DNA of 64,000 bases, from positions 1 to 64,000 of the forward strand of contig CP136064.1 in the NCBI GenBank assembly GCA_032622095.1. The letters run 5' to 3'. The stretch is from Siphonodentalium dalli. Lineage: Eukaryota; Mollusca; Scaphopoda; Gadilida; Siphonodentaliidae. This document shows positions 1 through 13,464 of this stretch, one piece after another. Under the pieces are notes generated by a model. The model had not been told where the DNA came from and searched no databases. It saw only the letters and a program-made list of their open reading frames with translations. Each line of letters begins with the position of its first letter. The first letter of the stretch is position 1. The position numbers and the translations under genes were made by a program.

Positions 1-3000
1 GATACCCCTTAAAGTTGGTGACTGTGTTACTTATGTCCCTTTAAGTTGAGATACATCTGTTCCTTTAAACATACATTTGCATTCCACCATGAAGATATAA
101 ATTTTCTGCAGTCATTGTAAATGACAACCCGATTCGGATATGGCCAGATTTGACATGGCGCGGTATGGAGAAACATGCGCCAAGTAGAAAATATCCAACC
201 GTACTCCACCATGGAACCATTCTAAATCAGACACCTCTTTAAGTTGGTGACTGTGTTACTTATGTCCCTTTAAGTTTGAGATACATCTGTTCCTTTAAAC
301 ATACATTTGCATTCCAACATGAAGATATATATTTTCTGCAGTCCATTGTAAATGACAACCCGATTCGGATATGGCCAGATTTGACATGGCGCGGTATGGA
401 GAAACATGCGCCAAATTGAAAATATCCAACCGTACTCCACCATGTAACCAGTCTATAGCAGATACCCCTTAAAGTTGGTGACGGTGTTACTTATGTCCCT
501 TTAAGTTGAGATACATCTGTTTCCTTTAAACATACATTTGCATTCCAACATGAAGATATATATTTTCTGCAGTCATTGTAAATGACAACCCGATTCGGAT
601 ATGGCCAGATTTGACATGGCGCGGTATGGAGAAACATGCGCCAAATAGAAAATATCCAACCGTACTCCACCATGGAACCAGTCTATAGCAGATACCCCTT
701 AAAGTTGGTGACGGTGTTACTTATGTCCCTTTAAGTTGAGATACATCTGTTCCTTTAAACATACATTTGCATTCCAACATGAAGATATTTATTTCTGTAG
801 TCATTGTAAATGACAACCCCGATTCGGATATGGCCAGATTTGACATGGCGCGGTATGGAGAAACATGCGCAAAATTGAAAATATCCAACCGTACTCCACC
901 ATGTAACCAGTCTATAGCAGATACCCCTTAAAGTTGGTGACTGTGTTACTTATGTCCCTTTAAGTTGAGATACATCTGTTTCTTTAAACATACATTTGCA
1001 TTCCAACATGAAGATATTTATTTTCTGTAGTCATTGTAAATGACAACGCCGATTCGGATATGGCCAGATTTGACATGACGCGGTAGGGAGAAACATGCGC
1101 CAAATTGAAAATATCCAACAGTACTCCACCATGGAACCAGTCTATAGCAGATACCCCTTAAGTTGGTGACGGTGTTACTTATGTCCCTTTAAGTTGAGAT
1201 ACATCTGTTCCTTTAAACATACATTTGCATTCCACCATGAAGATATATATTTTTCTGCAGTCATTGTAAATGACAACCCGATTCGGATATGGCCAGATTT
1301 GACATGGCGCGGTATGGAGAAACATGCGCCAAATTGAAAATATCCAACTGTACTCCACCATGGAACCAGTCTATAGCAGATACCCCTTAAAGTTGGTGAC
1401 TGTGTTACTTATGTCCCTTTAAGTTGAGATACATCTGTTTCCATTAAACATACATTTGCATTCCACCTTGAAGATATAAATTTTCTGCAGTCATTGTAAA
1501 TGACAACCCGATTCGGATATGGCCAGATTTGACATGGCGCGGTATGGAGAAACATGCGCCAAGTAGAAAATATCCAACCGTACTCCACCATGGAACCATT
1601 CTAAATCAGACACCTCTTTAAGTTGGTGACTGTGTTACTTATGTCCCTTTAAGTTGAGATACATCTGTTCCTTTAAACATACATTTGCATTCCAACATGA
1701 AGATATATATTTTCTGCAGTCATTGTAAATGACAACCCGATTCGGATATGGCCAGATTTGACATGGCGCGGTATGGAGAAACATGCGCCAAATTGAAAAT
1801 ATCCAACCGTACTCCACCATGGAACCAGTCTATAGCAGATACCCCTTTAAGTTGGTGACTGTGTTACTTATGTCCCTTTAAGTTGAGATACATCTGTTCC
1901 TTTAAACATACATTTGCATTCCAACATGAAGATATATATTTTTCTGCAGTCATTGTAAATGACAACCCGATTCGGATATGGCCAGATTTGACATGGCGCG
2001 GTATGGAGAAACATGCGCCAATTGAAAATATCCAACCGTACTCCACCATGGAACCAGTCTATAGCAGATACCCCTTTAAGTTGGTGACTGTGTTACTTAT
2101 GTCCCTTTAAGTTGAGATACATCTGTTCCTTTAAACATACATTTGCTTTCCAACATGAAGATATTTATTTTCTGTAGTCATTGTAAATGACAACCCGATT
2201 CGGATATGGCCAGATTTGACATGGCGCGGTATGGAAAAACATGCGCCAAATTGAAAATATCCAACCGTACTCCACCATGGAACCAGTCTATAGCAGATAC
2301 CCCTTAAAGTTGGTGACTGTGTTACTTATGTCTCTTTAAGTTGAGATACATCTGTTTCTTTAAACATACATTTGCATTCCAACATGAAGATATTTATTTT
2401 CTGTAGTCATTGTAAATGACAACCCGATTCGGATATGGCCAGATTTGACATGGCACGGTGTGGAGAAACATGCGCCAAATAGAAAATATCCAACCGTACT
2501 CCACCATGGAACCAGTCTATAGCAGATACCCCTTAAAGTTGGTGACTGTGTTACTTATGTCCCTTTAAGTTGAGATACATCTGTTCCTTTAAACATACAT
2601 TTGCATTCCAACATGAAGATATTTATTTTCTGTAGTCATTGTAAATGACAACCCGATTCGGATATGGCCAGATTTGACATGGCGCGGTAGGGAGAAACAT
2701 GCGCCAAATTGAAAATATCCAACAGTACTCCACCATGGAACCAGTCTATAGCAGATACCCCTTAAAGTTGGTGACTGTGTTACTTATGTCCCTTTAAGTT
2801 GAGATACATCTGTTTCTTTAAACATACATTTGCATTCCAACATGAAGATATTTATTTTCTGTAGTCATTGTAAATGACAACCCCGATTCGGATATGGCCA
2901 GATTTGACATGGCGCGGTATGGAGAAACATGCGCCAAATAGAAAATATCCAACCGTACTCCACCATGGAACCAGTCTATAGCAGATACCCCTTAAAGTTG

Positions 3001-4113
3001 GTAACTGTGTTACTTATGTCCCTTTAAGTTGAGATACATCTGTTCCTTTAAACATACATTTGCATTCCAACATGAAGATATTTATTTTCTGTAGTCATTG
3101 TAAATGACAACCCGATTCGGATATGGCCAGATTTGACATGGCGCGGAATGGAGAAACATGCGCCAAATAGAAAAATATCCAACCGTACTCCACCATGGAA
3201 CCAGTCTAAATCAGACACCTCTTTAAGTTGGTGACTGTGTTACTTATGTTCCTTTAAGTTGAGATACATCTGTTCCTTTAAACATACATTTGCATTCCAA
3301 CATGAAGATATTTATTTTCTGTAGTCATTGTAAATGACAACCCGATTCGGATATGGCCAGATTTGACATGGCGCGGTATGGAGAAACATGCGCAAAGTTG
3401 AAAATATCCAACCGTACTCCACCATGTAACCAGTCTATAGCAGATACCCCTTAAAGTTGGTGACGGTGTTACTTATGTCCCTTTAAGTTGAGATACATCT
3501 GTTCCTTTAAACATACATTTGCATTCCAACATGAAGATATATATTTTCTGCAGTCATTGTAAATGACAACCCGATTCGGATATGGCCAGATTTGACATGG
3601 CGCGGTATGGAGAAACATGCGCCAAATTGAAAATATCCAACCGTACTCCACCATGGAACCAGTCTATAGCAGATACCCCTTAAAGTTGGTGACTGTGTTA
3701 CTTATGTCCCTTTAAGTTGAGATACATCTGTTCCTTTAAACATACATTTGCATTCCAACATGAAGATATATATTTTCTGCAGTCATTGTAAATGACAACC
3801 CGATTCGGATATGGCCAGATTTGACATGGCGCGGTATGGAGAAACAAGCGCCAAATTGAAAATATCCAACCGTACTCCACCATGGGAACCAGTCTATAGC
3901 AGATACCCCTTAAAGTTGGTGACTGTGTTACTTATGTCCCTTTAAGTTGAGATACATCTGTTTCTTTAAACATACATTTGCATTCCACCATGAAGATATA
4001 TATTTTCTGCAGTCATTGTAAATGACAACCCGATTCGGATAGGGCCAGATTTGACATGACGCGGTATGGAGAAACATGCGCCAAATTGAAAATATCCAAC
4101 CGTACTCCACCAT
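1..4113 (-). repeat. Left arm, irregular part: diverged minus-strand monomers
   Basis: Monomers run on the minus strand. Start-to-start distances are often not exact multiples of 229: 212 to 673 is two monomers plus 3, 673 to 1361 three plus 1, 1361 to 1591 one plus 1, 2049 to 3654 seven plus 2, and 3883 to 4113 one plus 1. Small insertions are visible, for example an extra T near 1250 and extra bases near 286 and 341. Substitutions between neighbours are also more frequent than further right. Subtypes can still be recognised: m4-like copies end at 212 and 1591, an m10-like copy lies near 2143 and an m14-like copy at 3698-3883. The pattern suggests a less homogenised zone, possibly nearer to an array edge beyond base 1. 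Confidence 0.85.
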
Positions 4114-7100
4114 GGAACCAGTCTATATCAGACACCCCTTTAAGTTGGTGACTGTGTTACTTATGTCCCTTTAAGTTGAGATACATCTGTTCCTTTAAAC
4201 ATACATTTGCATTCCACCATGAAGATATATATTTTCTGCAGTCATTGTAAATGACAACCCGATTCGGATATGGCCAGATTTGACATGGCGCGGTATGGAG
4301 AAACATGCGCCAAATTGAAAATATCCAACCGTACTCCACCATGGAACCAGTCTATAGCAGATACCCCTTTAAGTTGGTGACTGTGTTGCTTATGTCCCTT
4401 TAAGTTGAGATACATCTGTTCCTTTAAACATACATTTGCATTCCAACATGAAGATATTTATTTTCTGTAGTCATTGTAAATGACAACCCGATTCGGATAT
4501 GGCCAGATTTGACATGGCGCGGTATGGAGAAACATGCGCCAAATTGAAAATATCCAACCGTACTCCACCATGGAACCAGTCTATAGCAGATACCCCTTAA
4601 AGTTGGTGACTGTGTTACTTATGTCCCTTTAAGTTGAGATACATCTGTTCCTTTAAACATACATTTGCATTCCAACATGAAGATATTTATTTTCTGTAGT
4701 CATTGTAAATGACAACCCGATTCGGATATGGCCAGATTTGACATGGCGCGGTATGGAGAAACATGCGCCAAATTGAAAATATCCAACAGTACTCCACCAT
4801 GGAACCAGTCTATAGCAGATACCCCTTAAAGTTGGTGACTGTGTTACTTATGTCCCTTTAAGTTGAGATACATCTGTTCCTTTAAACATACATTTGCATT
4901 CCAACATGAAGATATTTAATTTCTGTAGTCATTGTAAATGACAACCCGATTCGGATATGGCCAGATTTGACATGGCGCGGTATGGAGAAACATGCGCCAA
5001 ATAGAAAATATCCAACCGTACTCCACCATGGAACCAGTCTATAGCAGATACCCCTTAAAGTTGGTGACTGTGTTACTTATGTCCCTTTAAGTTGAGATAC
5101 ATCTGTTCCTCTAAACATACTTTTGCATTCCAACATGAAGATACTTATTTTCTGTAGTCATTGTAAATGACAACCCGATTCGGATATGGCCAGATTTGAC
5201 ATGGCGCGGTATGGAGAAACATGCGCCAAGTAGAAAATATCCAACCGTACTCCACCATGGAACCAGTCTAAATCAGACACCTCTTTAAGTTGGTGAATGT
5301 GTTACTTATGTCCCTTTAAGTTGAGATACATCTGTTCCTTTAAACATACATTTGCATTCCAACATGAAGATATTTATTTTCTGCAGTCATTGTAAATGAC
5401 AACCCGATTCGGATATGGCCAGATTTGACATGGCGCGGTATGGAGAAACATGCGCCAAATTGAAAATATCCAACCGTACTCCACCATGGAACCAGTCTAT
5501 AGCAGATACCCCTTAAAGTTGGTGACTGTGTTACTTATGTCCCTTTAAGTTGAGATACATCTGTTCCTTTAAACATACATTTGCAATCCACCATGAAGAT
5601 ATATATTTTCTGCAGTCATTGTAAATGACAACCCGATTCGGATAGGGCCAGATTTGACATGGCGCGGTATGGAGAAACATGCGCCAAATAGAAAATATCC
5701 AACCGTACTCCACCATGGAACCAGTCTATAGCAGATACCCCTTTAAGTTGGTGACTGTGTTACTTATGTCCCTTTAAGTTGAGATACATCTGTTCCTTTA
5801 AACATACATTTGCATTCCACCATGAAGATATATATTTTCTGCAGTCATTGTAAATGACAACCCGATTCGGATATGGCCAGATTTGACATGGCGCGGTATG
5901 GAGAAACATGCGCCAAATTGAAAATATCCAACCGTACTCCACCATGGAACCAGTCTATAGCAGATACCCCTTTAAGTTGGTAACTGTGTTACTTATGTCC
6001 CTTTAAGTTGAGATACATCTGTTCCTTTAAACATACATTTGCTTTCCAACATGAAGATATTTATTTTCTGTAGTCATTGTAAATGACAACCCGATTCGGA
6101 TATGGCCAGATTTGACATGGCGCGGTATGGAAAAACATGCGCCAAATTGAAAATATCCAACCGTACTCCACCATGGAACCAGTCTATAGCAGATACCCCT
6201 TAAAGTTGGTGACTGTGTTACTTATGTCCCTTTAAGTTGAGATACATCTGTTCCTTTAAACATACATTTGCATTCCAACATGAAGATATTTATTTTCTGT
6301 AGTCATTGTAAATGACAACCCGATTCGGATATGGCCAGATTTGACATGGCGCGGTATGGAGAAACATGCGCCAAATAGAAAATATCCAACCGTACTCCAC
6401 CATGGAACCAGTCTATAGCAGATACCCCTTAAAGTTGGTGACTGTGTTACTTATGTCCCTTTAAGTTGAGATACATCTGTTCCTTTAAACATACATTTGC
6501 ATTCCAACATGAAGATATTTATTTTCTGTAGTCATTGTAAATGACAACCCGATTTGGATATGGCCAGATTAGACATGGCGCGGTATGGAGAAACATGCGC
6601 CAAATAGAAAATATCCAACCGTACTCCACCATGGAACCAGTCTAAATCAGACACCTCTTTAAGTTGGTGACTGTGTTACTTATGTTCCTTTAAGTTGAGA
6701 TACATCTGTTCCTTTAAACATACATTTGCATTCCATAATGAAGATATATATTTTCTGCAGTCATTGTAAATGACAACCCGATTCGGATATGGCCAGATTT
6801 GACATGGCGCGGTATGGAGAAACATGCGCCAAATTGAAAATATCCAACCGTACTCCACCATGGAACCAGTCTATAGCAGATACCCCTTTAAGTTGGTGAC
6901 TGTGTTACTTATGTCCCTTTAAGTTGAGATACATCTGTTCCTTTAAACATACATTTGCTTTCCAACATGAAGATATTTATTTTCTGTAGTCATTGTAAAT
7001 GACAACCCGATTCGGATATGGCCAGATTTGACATGGCGCGGTATGGAAAAACATGCGCCAAATTGAAAATATCCAACCGTACTCCACCATGGAACCAGTC

Positions 7101-7591
7101 TATAGCAGATACCCCTTAAAGTTGGTGACTGTGTTACTTATGTCCCTTTAAGTTGAGATACATCTGTTCCTTTAAGCATACATTTGCATTCCAACATGAA
7201 GATATTTATTTTCTGTAGTCATTGTAAATGACAACCCGATTCGGATATGGCCAGATTTGACATGGCGCAGTATGGAGAAACATGCGCCAAATTGAAAATA
7301 TCCAACAGTACTCCACCATGGAACCAGTCTATAGCAGATACCCCTTAATGTTGGTGACTGTGTTACTTATGTTCCTTTAAGTTGAGATACATCTGTTTCT
7401 TTAAACATACATTTGCATTCCAACATGAAGATATTTATTTTCTGTAGTCATTGTAAATGACAACCCGATTCGGATATGGCCAGATTTGACATGGCGCGGT
7501 ATGGAGAAACATGCGCCAAATAGAAAATATCCAACCGTACTCCACCATGGAACCAGTCTATAGCAGATACCCCTTAAAGTTGGTGACTGTG

Positions 7592-8464
7592 TTACTTATG
7601 TCCCTTTAAGTTGAGATACATCTGTTCCTTTAAACATACATTTGCATTCCACCATGAAGATATATATTTTCTGCAGTCATTGTAAATGACAACCCGATTC
7701 GGATATGGCCAGATTTGACATGGCGCGGTATGGAGAAACATGCGCCAAGTAGAAAATATCCAACCGTACTCCACCATGGAACCATTCTAAATCAGACACC
7801 TCTTTAAGTTGGTGACTGTGTTACTTATGTCCCTTTAAGTTGAGATACATCTGTTCCTTTAAACATACATTTGCATTCCAACATGAAGATATTTATTTTC
7901 TGCAGTCATTGTAAATGACAACCCGATTCGGATATGGCCAGATTTGACATGGCGCGGTATGTAGAAACATGCGCAAAATTGAAAATATCCAACCGTACTC
8001 CACCATGTAACCACTCTATAGCAGATACCCCTTCAAGTTGGTGACGTTGTTACTTATGTCCCTTTAAGTTGAGATACATCTGTTCCTTTAAACATTCATT
8101 TGCATTCCACCATGAAGATATATATTTTCTGCAGTCATTGTAAATGACAACCCGATTCGGATATGGCCAGATTTGACATGGCGCGGTATGGAGAAACATG
8201 CGCCAAATTGAAAATATCCAACCGTACTCCACCATGTAACCAGTCTATAGCAGATACCCCTTAAAGTTGGTGACGGTGTTACTTATGTCCCTTTAAGTTG
8301 AGATACATCTGTTCCTTTAAACATACATTTGCATTCCAACATGAAGATATATATTTTCTGCAGTCATTGTAAATGACAACCCGATTCGGATATGGCCAGA
8401 TTTGACATGGCGCGGTATGGAGAAACATGCGCCAAATTGAAAATATCCAACCGTACTCCACCAT
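7592..8464 (-). repeat. m4-m3-m2-m1 block, copy 1 of a 2061-bp local repeat
   Basis: Four monomers (m1 at 8279-8464, m2 at 8050-8235, m3, m4 at 7592-7777) match 9653-10525 at an offset of 2061 bases, nine monomers. Both copies share a private T in the m2 monomer (AACATTC instead of AACATAC), at 8096 and 10157. This identifies them as copies of each other and not merely the same subtype. The copies differ at a few bases, for example in the m3 monomer near 7962 and 10049. Confidence 0.8.
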
Positions 8465-9652
8465 GGAACCAGTCTATAGCAGATACCCCTTAAAGTTGGT
8501 GACTGTGTTACTTATGTCCCTTTAAGTTGAGATACATCTGTTCCTTTAAACATATATTTGCATTCCACCATGAAGATATATATTTTCTGCAGTCATTGTA
8601 AATGACAACCCGATTCGGATAGGGCCAGATTTGACATGGCGCGGTATGGAGAAACATGCGCCAAATTGAAAATATCCAACCGTACTCCACCATGTAACCA
8701 GTCTATAGCAGATACCCCTTTAAGTTGGTGACTGTGTTACTTATGTCCCTTTAAGTTGAGATACATCTGTTCCTTTAAACATACATTTGCATTCCACCAT
8801 GAAGATATATATTTTCTGCAGTCATTGTAAATGACAACCCGATTCGGATATGGCCAGATTTGACATGGCGCGGTATGGAGAAACATGCGCCAAATTGAAA
8901 ATATCCAACAGTACTCCACCATGGAACCAGTCTATAGCAGATACCCCTTTAAGTTGGTGACTGTGTTACTTATGTCCCTTTAAGTTGAGATACATCTGTT
9001 CCTTTAAACATACATTTGCTTTCCAACATGAAGATATTTATTTTATGTAGTCATTGTAAATGACAACCCGATTCGGATATGGCCAGATTTGACATGGCGC
9101 GGTAGGGAGAAACATGCGCCAAATTGAAAATATCCAACAGTACTCCACCATGGAACCAGTCTATAGCAGATACCCCTTAAAGTTGGTGACTGTGTTACTT
9201 ATGTCCCTTTAAGTTGAGATACATCTGTTTCTTTAAACATACATTTGCATTCCAACATGAAGATATTTATTTTCTGTAGTCATTGTAAATGACAACCCGA
9301 TTCGGATATGGCCAGATTTGACATGACGCGGTAGGGAGAAACATGCGCCAAATTGAAAATATCCAACAGTACTCCACCATGGAACCAGTCTATAGCAGAT
9401 ACCCCTTAAAGTTGGTGACGGTGTTACTTATGTCCCTTTAAGTTGAGATACATCTGTTCCTTTAAACATACATTTGCATTCCACCATGAAGATATATATT
9501 TTCTGCAGTCATTGTAAATGACAACCCGATTCGGATATGGCCAGATTTGACATGGCGCGGTATGGAGAAACATGCGCCAAATTGAAAATATCCAACAGTA
9601 CTCCACCATGGAACCAGTCTATAGCAGATACCCCTTAAAGTTGGTGACTGTG

Positions 9653-10525
9653 TTACTTATGTCCCTTTAAGTTGAGATACATCTGTTCCTTTAAACATAC
9701 ATTTGCATTCCACCATGAAGATATATATTTTCTGCAGTCATTGTAAATGACAACCCGATTCGGATATGGCCAGATTTGACATGGCGCGGTATGGAGAAAC
9801 ATGCGCCAAGTAGAAAATATCCAACCGTACTCCACCATGGAACCATTCTAAATCAGACACCTCTTTAAGTTGGTGACTGTGTTACTTATGTCCCTTTAAG
9901 TTGAGATACATCTGTTCCTTTAAACATACATTTGCATTCCAACATGAAGATATTTATTTTCTGCAGTCATTGTAAATGACAACCCGATTCGGATATGGCC
10001 AGATTTGACATGGCGCGGTATGGAGAAACATGCGCAAAATTGAAAATATATAACCGTACTCCACCATGTAACCAGTCTATAGCAGATACCCCTTCAAGTT
10101 GGTGACGGTGTTACTTATGTCCCTTTAAGTTGAGATACATCTGTTCCTTTAAACATTCATTTGCATTCCACCATGAAGATATATATTTTCTGCAGTCATT
10201 GTAAATGACAACCCGATTCGGATATGGCCAGATTTGACATGGCGCGGTATGGAGAAACATGCGCCAAATTGAAAATATCCAACCGTACTCCACCATGTAA
10301 CCAGTCTATAGCAGATACCCCTTAAAGTTGGTGACGGTGTTACTTATGTCCCTTTAAGTTGAGATACATCTGTTCCTTTAAACATACATTTGCATTCCAA
10401 CATGAAGATATATATTTTCTGCAGTCATTGTAAATGACAACCCGATTCGGATATGGCCAGATTTGACATGGCGCGGTATGGAGAAACATGCGCCAAATTG
10501 AAAATATCCAACCGTACTCCACCAT
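9653..10525 (-). repeat. m4-m3-m2-m1 block, copy 2 of a 2061-bp local repeat
   Basis: This is the partner of 7592-8464. It has the same four monomers in the same order, with the shared T at 10157. To its left lie m12 (9424-9609) and an m13-like copy with the TGACGCGGTAGGG variant, so reading the minus strand gives m1-m2-m3-m4-m12-m13 as in the plus-strand 14-mer. Flanks of the two copies differ, so the exchange limits lie close to the block. Confidence 0.8.
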
Positions 10526-11431
10526 GGAACCAGTCTATAGCAGATACCCCTTAAAGTTGGTGACTGTGTTACTTATGTCCCTTTAAGTTGAGATACATCT
10601 GTTCCTTTAAACATACATTTGCATTCCAACATGAAGATATTTATTTTCTGTAGTCATTGTAAATGACAACCCGATTCGGATATGGCCAGATTTGACATGG
10701 CGCGGTAGGGAGAAACATGCGCCAAATTGAAAATATCCAACAGTACTCCACCATGGAACCAGTCTATAGCAGATACCCCTTAAAGTTGGTGACTGTGTTA
10801 CTTATGTCCCTTTAAGTTGAGATACATCTGTTTCTTTAAACATACATTTGCATTCCAACATGAAGATATTTATTTTCTGTAGTCATTGTAAATGACAACT
10901 CGATTCGGATATGGCCAGATTTGACATGGCGCGGTATGGAGAAACATGCGCCAAATAGAAAATATCCAACCGTACTCCACCATGGAACCAGTCTAAATCA
11001 GACACCTCTTTAAGTTGGTGACTGTGTTACTTATGTTCCTTTAAGTTGAGATACATCCGTTCCTTTAAACATACATTTGCACTGCAACATGAAGATATAT
11101 ATTTTCTGTAGTCATTGTAAATGACAACCCGATTCGGATATGGCCAGATTTGACATGGCGCGGTATGGAGAAACATGCGCAAAATTGAAAATATCCAACC
11201 GTACTCCACCATGTAACCAGTCTATAGCAGATACCCCTTAAAGTTGGTGACTGTGTTACTTATGTCCCTTTAAGTTGAGATACATCTGTTTCTTCAAACA
11301 TACATTTGCATTCCAACATGAAGATATTTATTTTCTGTAGTCATTGTAAATGACAACCCGATTCGGATATGGCCAGATTTGACATGGCGCGGTATGGAGA
11401 AACATGCGCCAAATAGAAAATATCCAACCGT

Positions 11432-11434
11432 ACT
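11432..11434. other. Orientation junction 1 (minus to plus), ACT microhomology
   Basis: The minus-strand arm reads CCAACCGTACT and would continue CCACC. Instead the sequence continues TTAAGGGG, which belongs to a plus-strand monomer tail that normally reads CCAACTTTAAGG. The bases ACT are common to both sides, leaving a 3-bp ambiguity in the breakpoint. The junction is divergent (sense directions point away from it) and has no inserted bases. Confidence 0.85.
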
Positions 11435-11984
11435 TTAAGGGGTATCTGCTATAGACTGGTTCCATGGTGGAGTACGGTTGGATATTTTCCATTTGGCGCA
11501 TGTTTCTCCATACCGCGCCATGTCAAATCTGGCCATATCCGAATCAAGTTGTCATTTACAATGACTACAGAAAATAAATATCTTCATGTTGGAATGCAAA
11601 TGTATGTTTAAAGGAACAGATGTATCTCAACTTAAAGGGACATAAGTAACACAGTCACCAACTTTAAGGGGTATCTGCTATAGACTGGTTACATGGTGGA
11701 GTACGGTTGGATATTTTCAATTTTGCGCATGTTTCTCCATACCGCGCCATGTCAAATCTGGCCATATCCGAATCGGGTTGTCATTTACAATGACTACAGA
11801 AAATAAATATCTTCATGTTGGAATGCAAATGTATGTTTGAAGGAACAGATGTATCTCAACTTAAAGGGACATAAGTAACACAGTCACCAACTTTAAGGGG
11901 TATCTCCTATAGACTGGTTCCATGGTGGAGTACGGTTGGATATTTTCTATTTGGCGCATGTTTCTCCATACCGCGCCATGTCAA

Positions 11985-11987
11985 ATC
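11985..11987. other. Orientation junction 2 (plus to minus), ATC microhomology
   Basis: The plus-strand monomer reads CATGTCAAATC and would continue TGGCC. The sequence instead continues CAACCGTACTCC, the minus-strand form normally preceded by AAAATATC. The bases ATC belong to both sides. This junction is convergent. About 160 to 190 bases of monomer are missing on each side relative to a clean inversion, so simple reversal of a segment cannot explain it. Confidence 0.85.
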
Positions 11988-13464
11988 CAACCGTACTCCA
12001 CCATGGAACCAGTCTAAATCATACACCTCTTTAAGTTGGTGACTGTGTTACTTATGTTCCTTTAAGTTGAGATACATCCGTTCCTTTAAACATACATTTG
12101 CATTGCAACATGAAGATATATATTTTCTGTAGTCATTGTAAATGACAACCCGATTCGGATATGGCCAGATTTCACATGACGCGGTAGGGAGAAACATGCG
12201 CCAAATTGAAAATATCCAACAGTACTCCACCATGGAACCAGTCTATAGCAGATACCCCTTAAAGTTGGTGACGGTGTTACTTATGTCCCTTTAAGTTGAG
12301 ATACATCTGTTCCTTTAAACATACATTTGCATTCCAACATGAAGATATATATTTTCTGCAGTCATTGTAAATGACAACCCGATTCGGATATGGCCAGATT
12401 TGACATGGCGCGGTATGGAGAAACATGCGCCAAATTGAAAATATCCAACCGTACTCCACCATGGAACCAGTCTATAGCAGATACCCCTTAAAGTTGGTGA
12501 CTGTGTTACTTATGTCCCTTTAAGTTGAGATACATCTGTTTCTTCAAACATACATTTGCATTCCAACATGAAGATATTTATTTTCTGTAGTCATTGTAAA
12601 TGACAACCCGATTCGGATATGGCCAGATTTGACATGGCGCGGTATGGAGAAACATGCGCAAAATTGAAAATATCCAACCATACTCCACCATGGAACCAGT
12701 CTATAGGAGATACCCCTTAAAGTTGGTGACTGTGTTACTTATGTCCCTTTAAGTTGAGATACATCTGTTCCTTCAAACATACATTTGCATTCCAACATGA
12801 AGATATTTATTTTCTGTAGTCATTGTAAATGACAACCCGATTCGGATATGGCCAGATTTGACATGGCGCGGTATGGAGAAACATGCGCAAAATTGAAAAT
12901 ATCCAACCGTACTCCACCATGTAACCAGTCTATAGCAGATACCCCTTAAAGTTGGTGACTGTGTTACTTATGTCCCTTTAAGTTGAGATACATCTGTTCC
13001 TTTAAACATACATTTGCATTCCAACATGAAGATATTTATTTTCTGTAGTCATTGTAAATGACAACTTGATTCGGATATGGCCAGATTTGACATGGCGCGG
13101 TATGGAGAAACATGCGCCAAATGGAAAATATCCAACCGTACTCCACCATGGAACCAGTCTATAGCAGATACCCCTTTAAGTTGGTGACTGTGTTACTTAT
13201 GTCCCTTTAAGTTGAGATACATCTGTTCCTTTAAACATACATTTGCATTCCACCATGAAGATATATATTTTCTGCAGTCATTGTAAATGACAACCCGATT
13301 CGGATATGGCCAGATTTGACATGGCGCGGTATGGAGAAACATGCGCCAAATTGAAAATATCCAACAGTACTCCACCATGGAACCAGTCTATAGCAGATAC
13401 CCCTTTAAGTTGGTGACTGTGTTACTTATGTCCCTTTAAGTTGAGATACATCTGTTCCTTTAAA
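11988..13464 (-). repeat. Minus-strand satellite segment between junctions 2 and 3
   Basis: About six monomers on the minus strand. The first 160 or so bases repeat the sequence at about 10969: both carry GTCTAAATCA, the CATCCGTTCC variant and a changed CAACATGAAG context seen nowhere else. Further right are an m5/m1-like copy (12277-12462), two copies with the rare CTTCAAACAT variant (near 12543 and 12773), an m11-like copy with CAACTTGATTC (near 13065) and an m12-like copy (13193-13378). The ATG-to-ATG distance across the inverted segment (11212 to 12233) is 1021, four monomers plus 105, as expected for a broken register. Confidence 0.85.
13462..13464. other. Orientation junction 3 (minus to plus), AAA microhomology
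   Basis: The minus-strand side reads CTGTTCCTTTAAA and would continue CATAC. The plus-strand side reads TAAATATCTTC and is normally preceded by AGAAAA. The three A bases are common to both. The junction is divergent and forms the centre of a large inverted arrangement: the left arm from monomer position 144 onward faces the right arm beginning near position 109. The neighbouring monomers are different subtypes (class A on the left, class B on the right), so the two arms are not mirror copies in register. Confidence 0.85.

Follow-up and report, generated by a model that had tools for sequence, protein, structure and literature searches.

A 229-bp satellite array with three orientation switches

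We analyzed a window of 64,000 nucleotides at the start of contig CP136064.1 (C4:1–64000) of the Siphonodentalium dalli assembly, in which a genome of 2.23 Gb is represented by 9 contigs. Tandem Repeats Finder assigned the whole window to one tandem array of a 229-bp satellite repeat, and adjacent monomers within 13462–64000 are 96% identical. Samples of 500 bp along C4 consisted of satellite through position 2,200,001, except at 500,001, where an insert was sampled, and those at 2,300,001 and beyond were non-satellite, giving an array of about 2.2 Mb. All of the satellite-search matches, among those listed, lie on C4, and no match came from the opening 500 bp of any of the eight remaining contigs. 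C4 starts inside the satellite without a telomere; C3 starts with CCCTAA telomere repeats.

We refer to the orientation of positions 1–11434 as A and to the opposite orientation as B, and count the phases of all switches in one 229-bp frame. The array begins with a plus-strand A block (1–11434; 49.9 copies by Tandem Repeats Finder, also delimited by a phase map), followed by a minus-strand B segment of about 2.4 monomers (11432–11987), a plus-strand A segment of about 6.5 monomers (11985–13464) and a minus-strand B block that fills the remainder of the window (13462–64000; 220.7 copies). Successive blocks overlap by 3 bp at each boundary. These overlaps define three joints: J1 (A to B, 11432–11434, shared ACT, left and right phases 209/22), J2 (B to A, 11985–11987, shared ATC, phases 157/200) and J3 (A to B, 13462–13464, shared AAA, phases 73/111). 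An orientation and phase caller based on the Viterbi algorithm, applied to the window in four overlapping pieces, recovered J1, J2 and J3 and called no further switch, so that two methods place the flips exactly where the original prediction had them. A 13-bp direct repeat lies immediately left of the B segment (11422–11434, plus strand), with its partner at 11985–11997. Positions 1–3885 show phase drift through many small indels, and most of the remaining window is almost free of them; of the four pieces, the first (16.5 kb) gave 14 small-indel calls, the second 5 and the last two 0.

The three joints share 3, 3 and 3 bases when compared at base level with the monomer consensus, and the count is unchanged against neighboring real monomers, as had been anticipated from the sequence. 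By chance, at least 3 shared bases occur in 6.05% of all consensus phase pairs and in 6.04% when 200,000 joins were drawn at random from actual monomers of the window. The probability that all three joints would do so is p = 2.2e-4 if they are independent, an assumption made doubtful by the copies elsewhere described below. Because these microhomology joins sit at unrelated monomer phases, homologous exchange between monomers did not make them, and its exclusion by the original prediction stands. The three flips are microhomology joins that are real in the assembly.

Two of the three joints recur near 620 kb

Whole-genome pattern searches allowing up to 3 mismatches found the J1 pattern in the window and, otherwise, only at C4:620,014 (pattern start), with the joint at C4:620,029. 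The J2 pattern was likewise found in the window and only at 619,090 (pattern start), with the joint at C4:619,103. The same search, at up to 3 mismatches, returned J3 at its window position and found no second copy. The far copies lie 607–609 kb from those in the window, in reversed order and with J3 absent. From left to right, the window reads A, J1, 553 bp of B, J2, 1477 bp of A, J3 and B; between 614 and 624 kb the order is A, a further switch termed X (618,696), about 410 bp of B, J2, about 930 bp of A, J1 and B.

Close similarity between the two sites is confined to patches around the shared joints, with 0/247 mismatches at J1 (11215–11461) and 1/448 at J2 (11725–12172); outside these patches the flanks diverge by about 3–4%. 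In tests with 59 random queries for each length, a match with 0 mismatches over 247 bp was met at a mean of 0.4% of in-phase places and one with at most 1 mismatch over 448 bp at a mean of 1.3%. Since the flank match is far above this background, common descent of the J1 and J2 copies is better supported than their independent formation.

These results weigh against the part of the original prediction that read J1, J2 and J3 as a single clustered event: two of the joints recur at a distance, reversed and without the third, and their flanks match the far copies only within the two patches. The cluster does not establish one three-switch event, as J1 and J2 are shared with another site in a different order.

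A survey of switch types across the array

We surveyed 312 kb of the array, a non-uniform sample that comprises the window and stretches of 30, 75, 94 and 49 kb, partly picked where switches were expected. This yielded 11 switch types at 19 places, with three copies of J9, two each of J1, J2, J4, J6, J8 and J10, and one each of J3, X, J5 and J7. Thus 7 of the 11 types occur at more than one place. One of the two J6 copies is inverted: the copies at C4:222,503 and 243,262 lie 20.8 kb apart and match in opposite orientation with zero mismatches, over about 0.7 kb to one side of the joint and about 0.9 kb to the other.

The survey bears on whether chimeric or collapsed reads could have produced false flips within a near-identical repeat. 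Such an assembly artefact would fit the presence of J3 at one place only and the start of C4 within the array without a telomere. Random chimeras would not, however, generate the same joints repeatedly, as seen for J1 and J2 in different contexts and for the recurrent types generally, and no switch was called in five plain B stretches totaling 45 kb. We therefore regard an artefact as very unlikely.

Microhomology extends to other types. By a strict consensus count, J4 shares 5 bases, J5 shares 3 and J9 shares 2, and zero shared bases were counted at X, J6, J7, J8 and J10 (5 of 11 types). Together with the window joints, 5 of the 11 types carry microhomology of at least 3 bp (p = 2.7e-4). The overlap at X would rise to 8 if its B template had the T variant observed beside J4, and J10 contains 4–5 extra nucleotides beside a copy of the same letters.

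A clean reciprocal inversion was rejected as the source of the switches: none of 30 opposite-type pairs among the 11 types is exactly reciprocal. The nearest pair, J9 and J2, misses reciprocity by 8 bases; with 60 comparisons, this is no surprise.

The array also shows local departures from its regular structure. Monomers at C4:1,740,001–1,740,500 are unusually diverged (87% to consensus), as is the arm left of J8 (C4:473,556–473,855), for which only its own other copy and one further place (9 mismatches) lie within 12%. A 6.6-kb non-satellite insert (C4:494,434–501,044) contains a 553-amino-acid reverse-transcriptase frame (RVT_1, E 3.6e-07); the adjacent 368-amino-acid frame matched no Pfam family. 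At a 3.3-kb insert (C4:239,147–242,492), the phases of the satellite on the two sides (128, then 126) overlap by 3 bases, which resembles a short target-site duplication. A non-satellite insert of 0.7 kb lies within B array at C4:306,861–307,604.

Candidate donors and fold-back geometry

We searched for donors of the inter-joint blocks exhaustively within the surveyed stretches and, genome-wide, among the few candidates that were scored. At 620 kb, the A block that runs for 929 bp from J2 to J1 differs by 1 mismatch from B-orientation sequence at 179784, 1689824 and 1790935, and its best A-orientation match in surveyed DNA has 10 mismatches. In the genome search (30 of 539 candidates scored), all 57 near-full-length matches listed are in B orientation. 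The 410-bp B block left of J2 at the same site has 1 mismatch to 180578–180987 and to 1690618–1691027. The two arms of this copy of J2 can therefore be placed on a single haplotype, still present at both 180 kb and 1.69 Mb, with a turn of about 272 bases. A fold-back would leave this arrangement, as would the fusion of staggered sister ends.

Our fold-back test with long arms covered 4 of the 11 types (J1, J2, J3 and J5), two of which, J2 and J5, were positive. Both copies of J2 passed at slack 0; in the window copy the right arm is diverged (24/929 mismatches at best). J5, at 176,426, shows fold-back geometry within its own locus, its arms being identical over 600 bp across a spacer of 512 bp. 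Neither copy of J1, nor J3, gave a long-arm hit at slack 0 or 1. Among control joins made at random between opposite orientations, 5/127 and 6/150 were positive at slack 0 (about 4%), rising to 14% at slack 1. The longer arms were chosen only after the result with 300-bp arms was known; that version of the test, in which 11 of 16 joint copies were positive, was dropped because 199 of 400 controls also passed it.

The B segment in the window is an inverted near-copy of 12626–13181 (4/556 mismatches, with a single one across the initial 500 bp and 3 within the 50 bp adjoining J2). The next best match in surveyed DNA has 9, and 12626–13181 was also the best among the matches listed in a genome search (7 of 262 candidates scored). 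For the A segment between J2 and J3, all 51 genome matches listed are in the opposite orientation, the best at about 98%. Among the candidates scored, no close donor was found for the B sequence adjoining J1 at 620 kb. The array right of J3 finds its best matches at C4:622001–622916 and 624062–624977; on the left side of this joint, the adjoining 300 bp are identical to 8706–9005 and 614604–614903. J3 hence joins sequences that have close relatives several kb apart, and no fold-back relation between its two sides could be demonstrated.

These data allow the single-event reading to be weighed further. One template-switching event could have made J1, J2 and J3 in the window, the copies at 619–620 kb being later partial copies; the uniform 3-base overlaps accord with this, as does the B segment, an inverted near-copy of A sequence lying 0.7 kb farther right, which is the outcome expected of a local switch. 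The far J1 and J2, however, have other outer joins (X and ordinary B array), and the 620-kb blocks resemble their donors more closely than the window flanks resemble the 620-kb copy; on this evidence the window does not appear to be the more recent of the two sites. The failure of J1 and J3 in the fold-back test detracts further from this reading, which we consider improbable. Template switching of the FoSTeS/MMBIR class, which the original prediction also invoked, is plausible in view of the microhomology at the joins and the fold-back donors of J2; this support does not extend to a single clustered event.

Microhomology-mediated end joining is a rival of greater weight, although in our judgment still unlikely. 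Broken sister-chromatid ends or captured satellite fragments would be ligated at 3-bp matches; fused staggered sister ends would give the same inverted arms and spacer as a fold-back, and the overlaps at J1, J2 and J3 fit this pathway as well as they fit template switching and cannot separate the two. Error-prone end joining often leaves extra letters copied from adjacent sequence, as at J10, and J1 and J3 are without fold-back donors. An inversion in maize CentC has likewise been attributed to microhomology end joining (PMC8997354). Against it, the inter-joint blocks are near-perfect copies of surviving haplotypes (1/929 mismatches), which would require a copying step or a duplicated fragment in addition.

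A different view holds that the same joints formed independently and repeatedly at hot spots where the monomer folds. In 5 of 11 types the phase distance is 38–44 bases (scan p = 0.015), a range picked after seeing the data; 94 kb added to the survey after this pattern was noticed supplied two more copies of known types and no new type. Judged by the donors, the turns span 272 bases at J2 and 512 bases at J5, and on this ground we rejected a preferred hairpin loop near 40 bases. The flanks of the two J1 and the two J2 copies are, moreover, far more alike than background, and we find hot spots extremely unlikely.

Discussion

We propose that the 2-kb cluster is a composite A-to-B boundary assembled stepwise from joints that spread with the array, J2 having most likely arisen by fold-back or template switching; we give this account as a whole about an even chance. 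That the cluster was built in two or more steps from such joints is probable, and microhomology-mediated fold-back or template switching is a plausible source. The data directly show the coordinates, phases and overlaps of the joints, their second copies and the identities of the donors. In the scheme that we infer, including its order of events, its polymerase copying and its pathway, single switches would arise by non-homologous joins, often using few shared bases. At J2, the donors suggest that a strand copying a B-orientation haplotype reversed at an ATC/GAT match lying about 272 bases behind it, from where it would have copied the same haplotype in the other direction. Switch joints, once formed, would be copied along with the array, and J1 and J2 indeed lie at two sites in different orders; J3 would have been added in the window lineage through a separate join. 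In the most likely history, each joint forms by itself, whether through fold-back, template switching or end joining, and is later copied and reshuffled by the turnover of the array.

A more doubtful extension is that switch modules travel as mobile passengers: J2, the inverted block and J1 might be duplicated or circularized as a unit and re-enter the array through homologous stretches in either orientation. Such movement would account for the opposite orders in which J1 and J2 stand in the window and at 620 kb. If so, a satellite array would reseed its own inversions.

Changes of orientation within satellites are poorly known because the joints are difficult to assemble. The array described here offers 11 joint types at base resolution, several with microhomology, two with fold-back donors and most of them recurrent, and switch formation and later spread thereby become testable in one locus. 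Our results also carry a warning that a cluster of satellite joints should not be read as one catastrophe before copies elsewhere have been checked.

Rearrangements of the FoSTeS/MMBIR class show microhomology at their joins and inverted copied blocks, with the donor kept. The array resembles them in its microhomology and in copied blocks whose donors remain (1 mismatch in the 929-bp block, 4/556 in the B segment; the A segment between J2 and J3 is matched at about 98% at best), but differs in that two of the three joints in the cluster exist separately elsewhere.

Inverted arms with a spacer between them are likewise found in yeast and human fold-back inversions. The yeast events have stems of 4–15 bp (PMC7467729), human inverted duplications have 2–8 bp of inverted microhomology in 13 joints (PMC3907307), and some spacers reach hundreds of bases or more (PMC7467729, PMC3907307). 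In both cases the events arose anew, in cells or in patients, and their flanks are unique (PMC7467729, PMC3907307). The joints described here are old events inside a satellite, and among the four types tested with long arms only J2 and J5 have fold-back donors.

Two systems offer comparisons within satellite DNA. Maize CentC has undergone microhomology-mediated rearrangement within a satellite array, including an inversion that split the array (PMC8997354); that is one inversion, in contrast to the 11 joint types found here, of which 7 are repeated and none pairs with another as a clean inversion. The satellites of Tribolium madens show macro-dyad symmetries, orientation changes and a few recurring types of inversion site (PMC13081366), a recurrence paralleled by the 7 of 11 types that we find at more than one place. 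Arrays there tend to consist of two subarrays of balanced size, and the subunit at the inversion site is degenerate; microhomology goes unmentioned in the Tribolium text (PMC13081366). On C4 the segments are uneven in length, and each joint cuts the monomers off precisely, with a short overlap.
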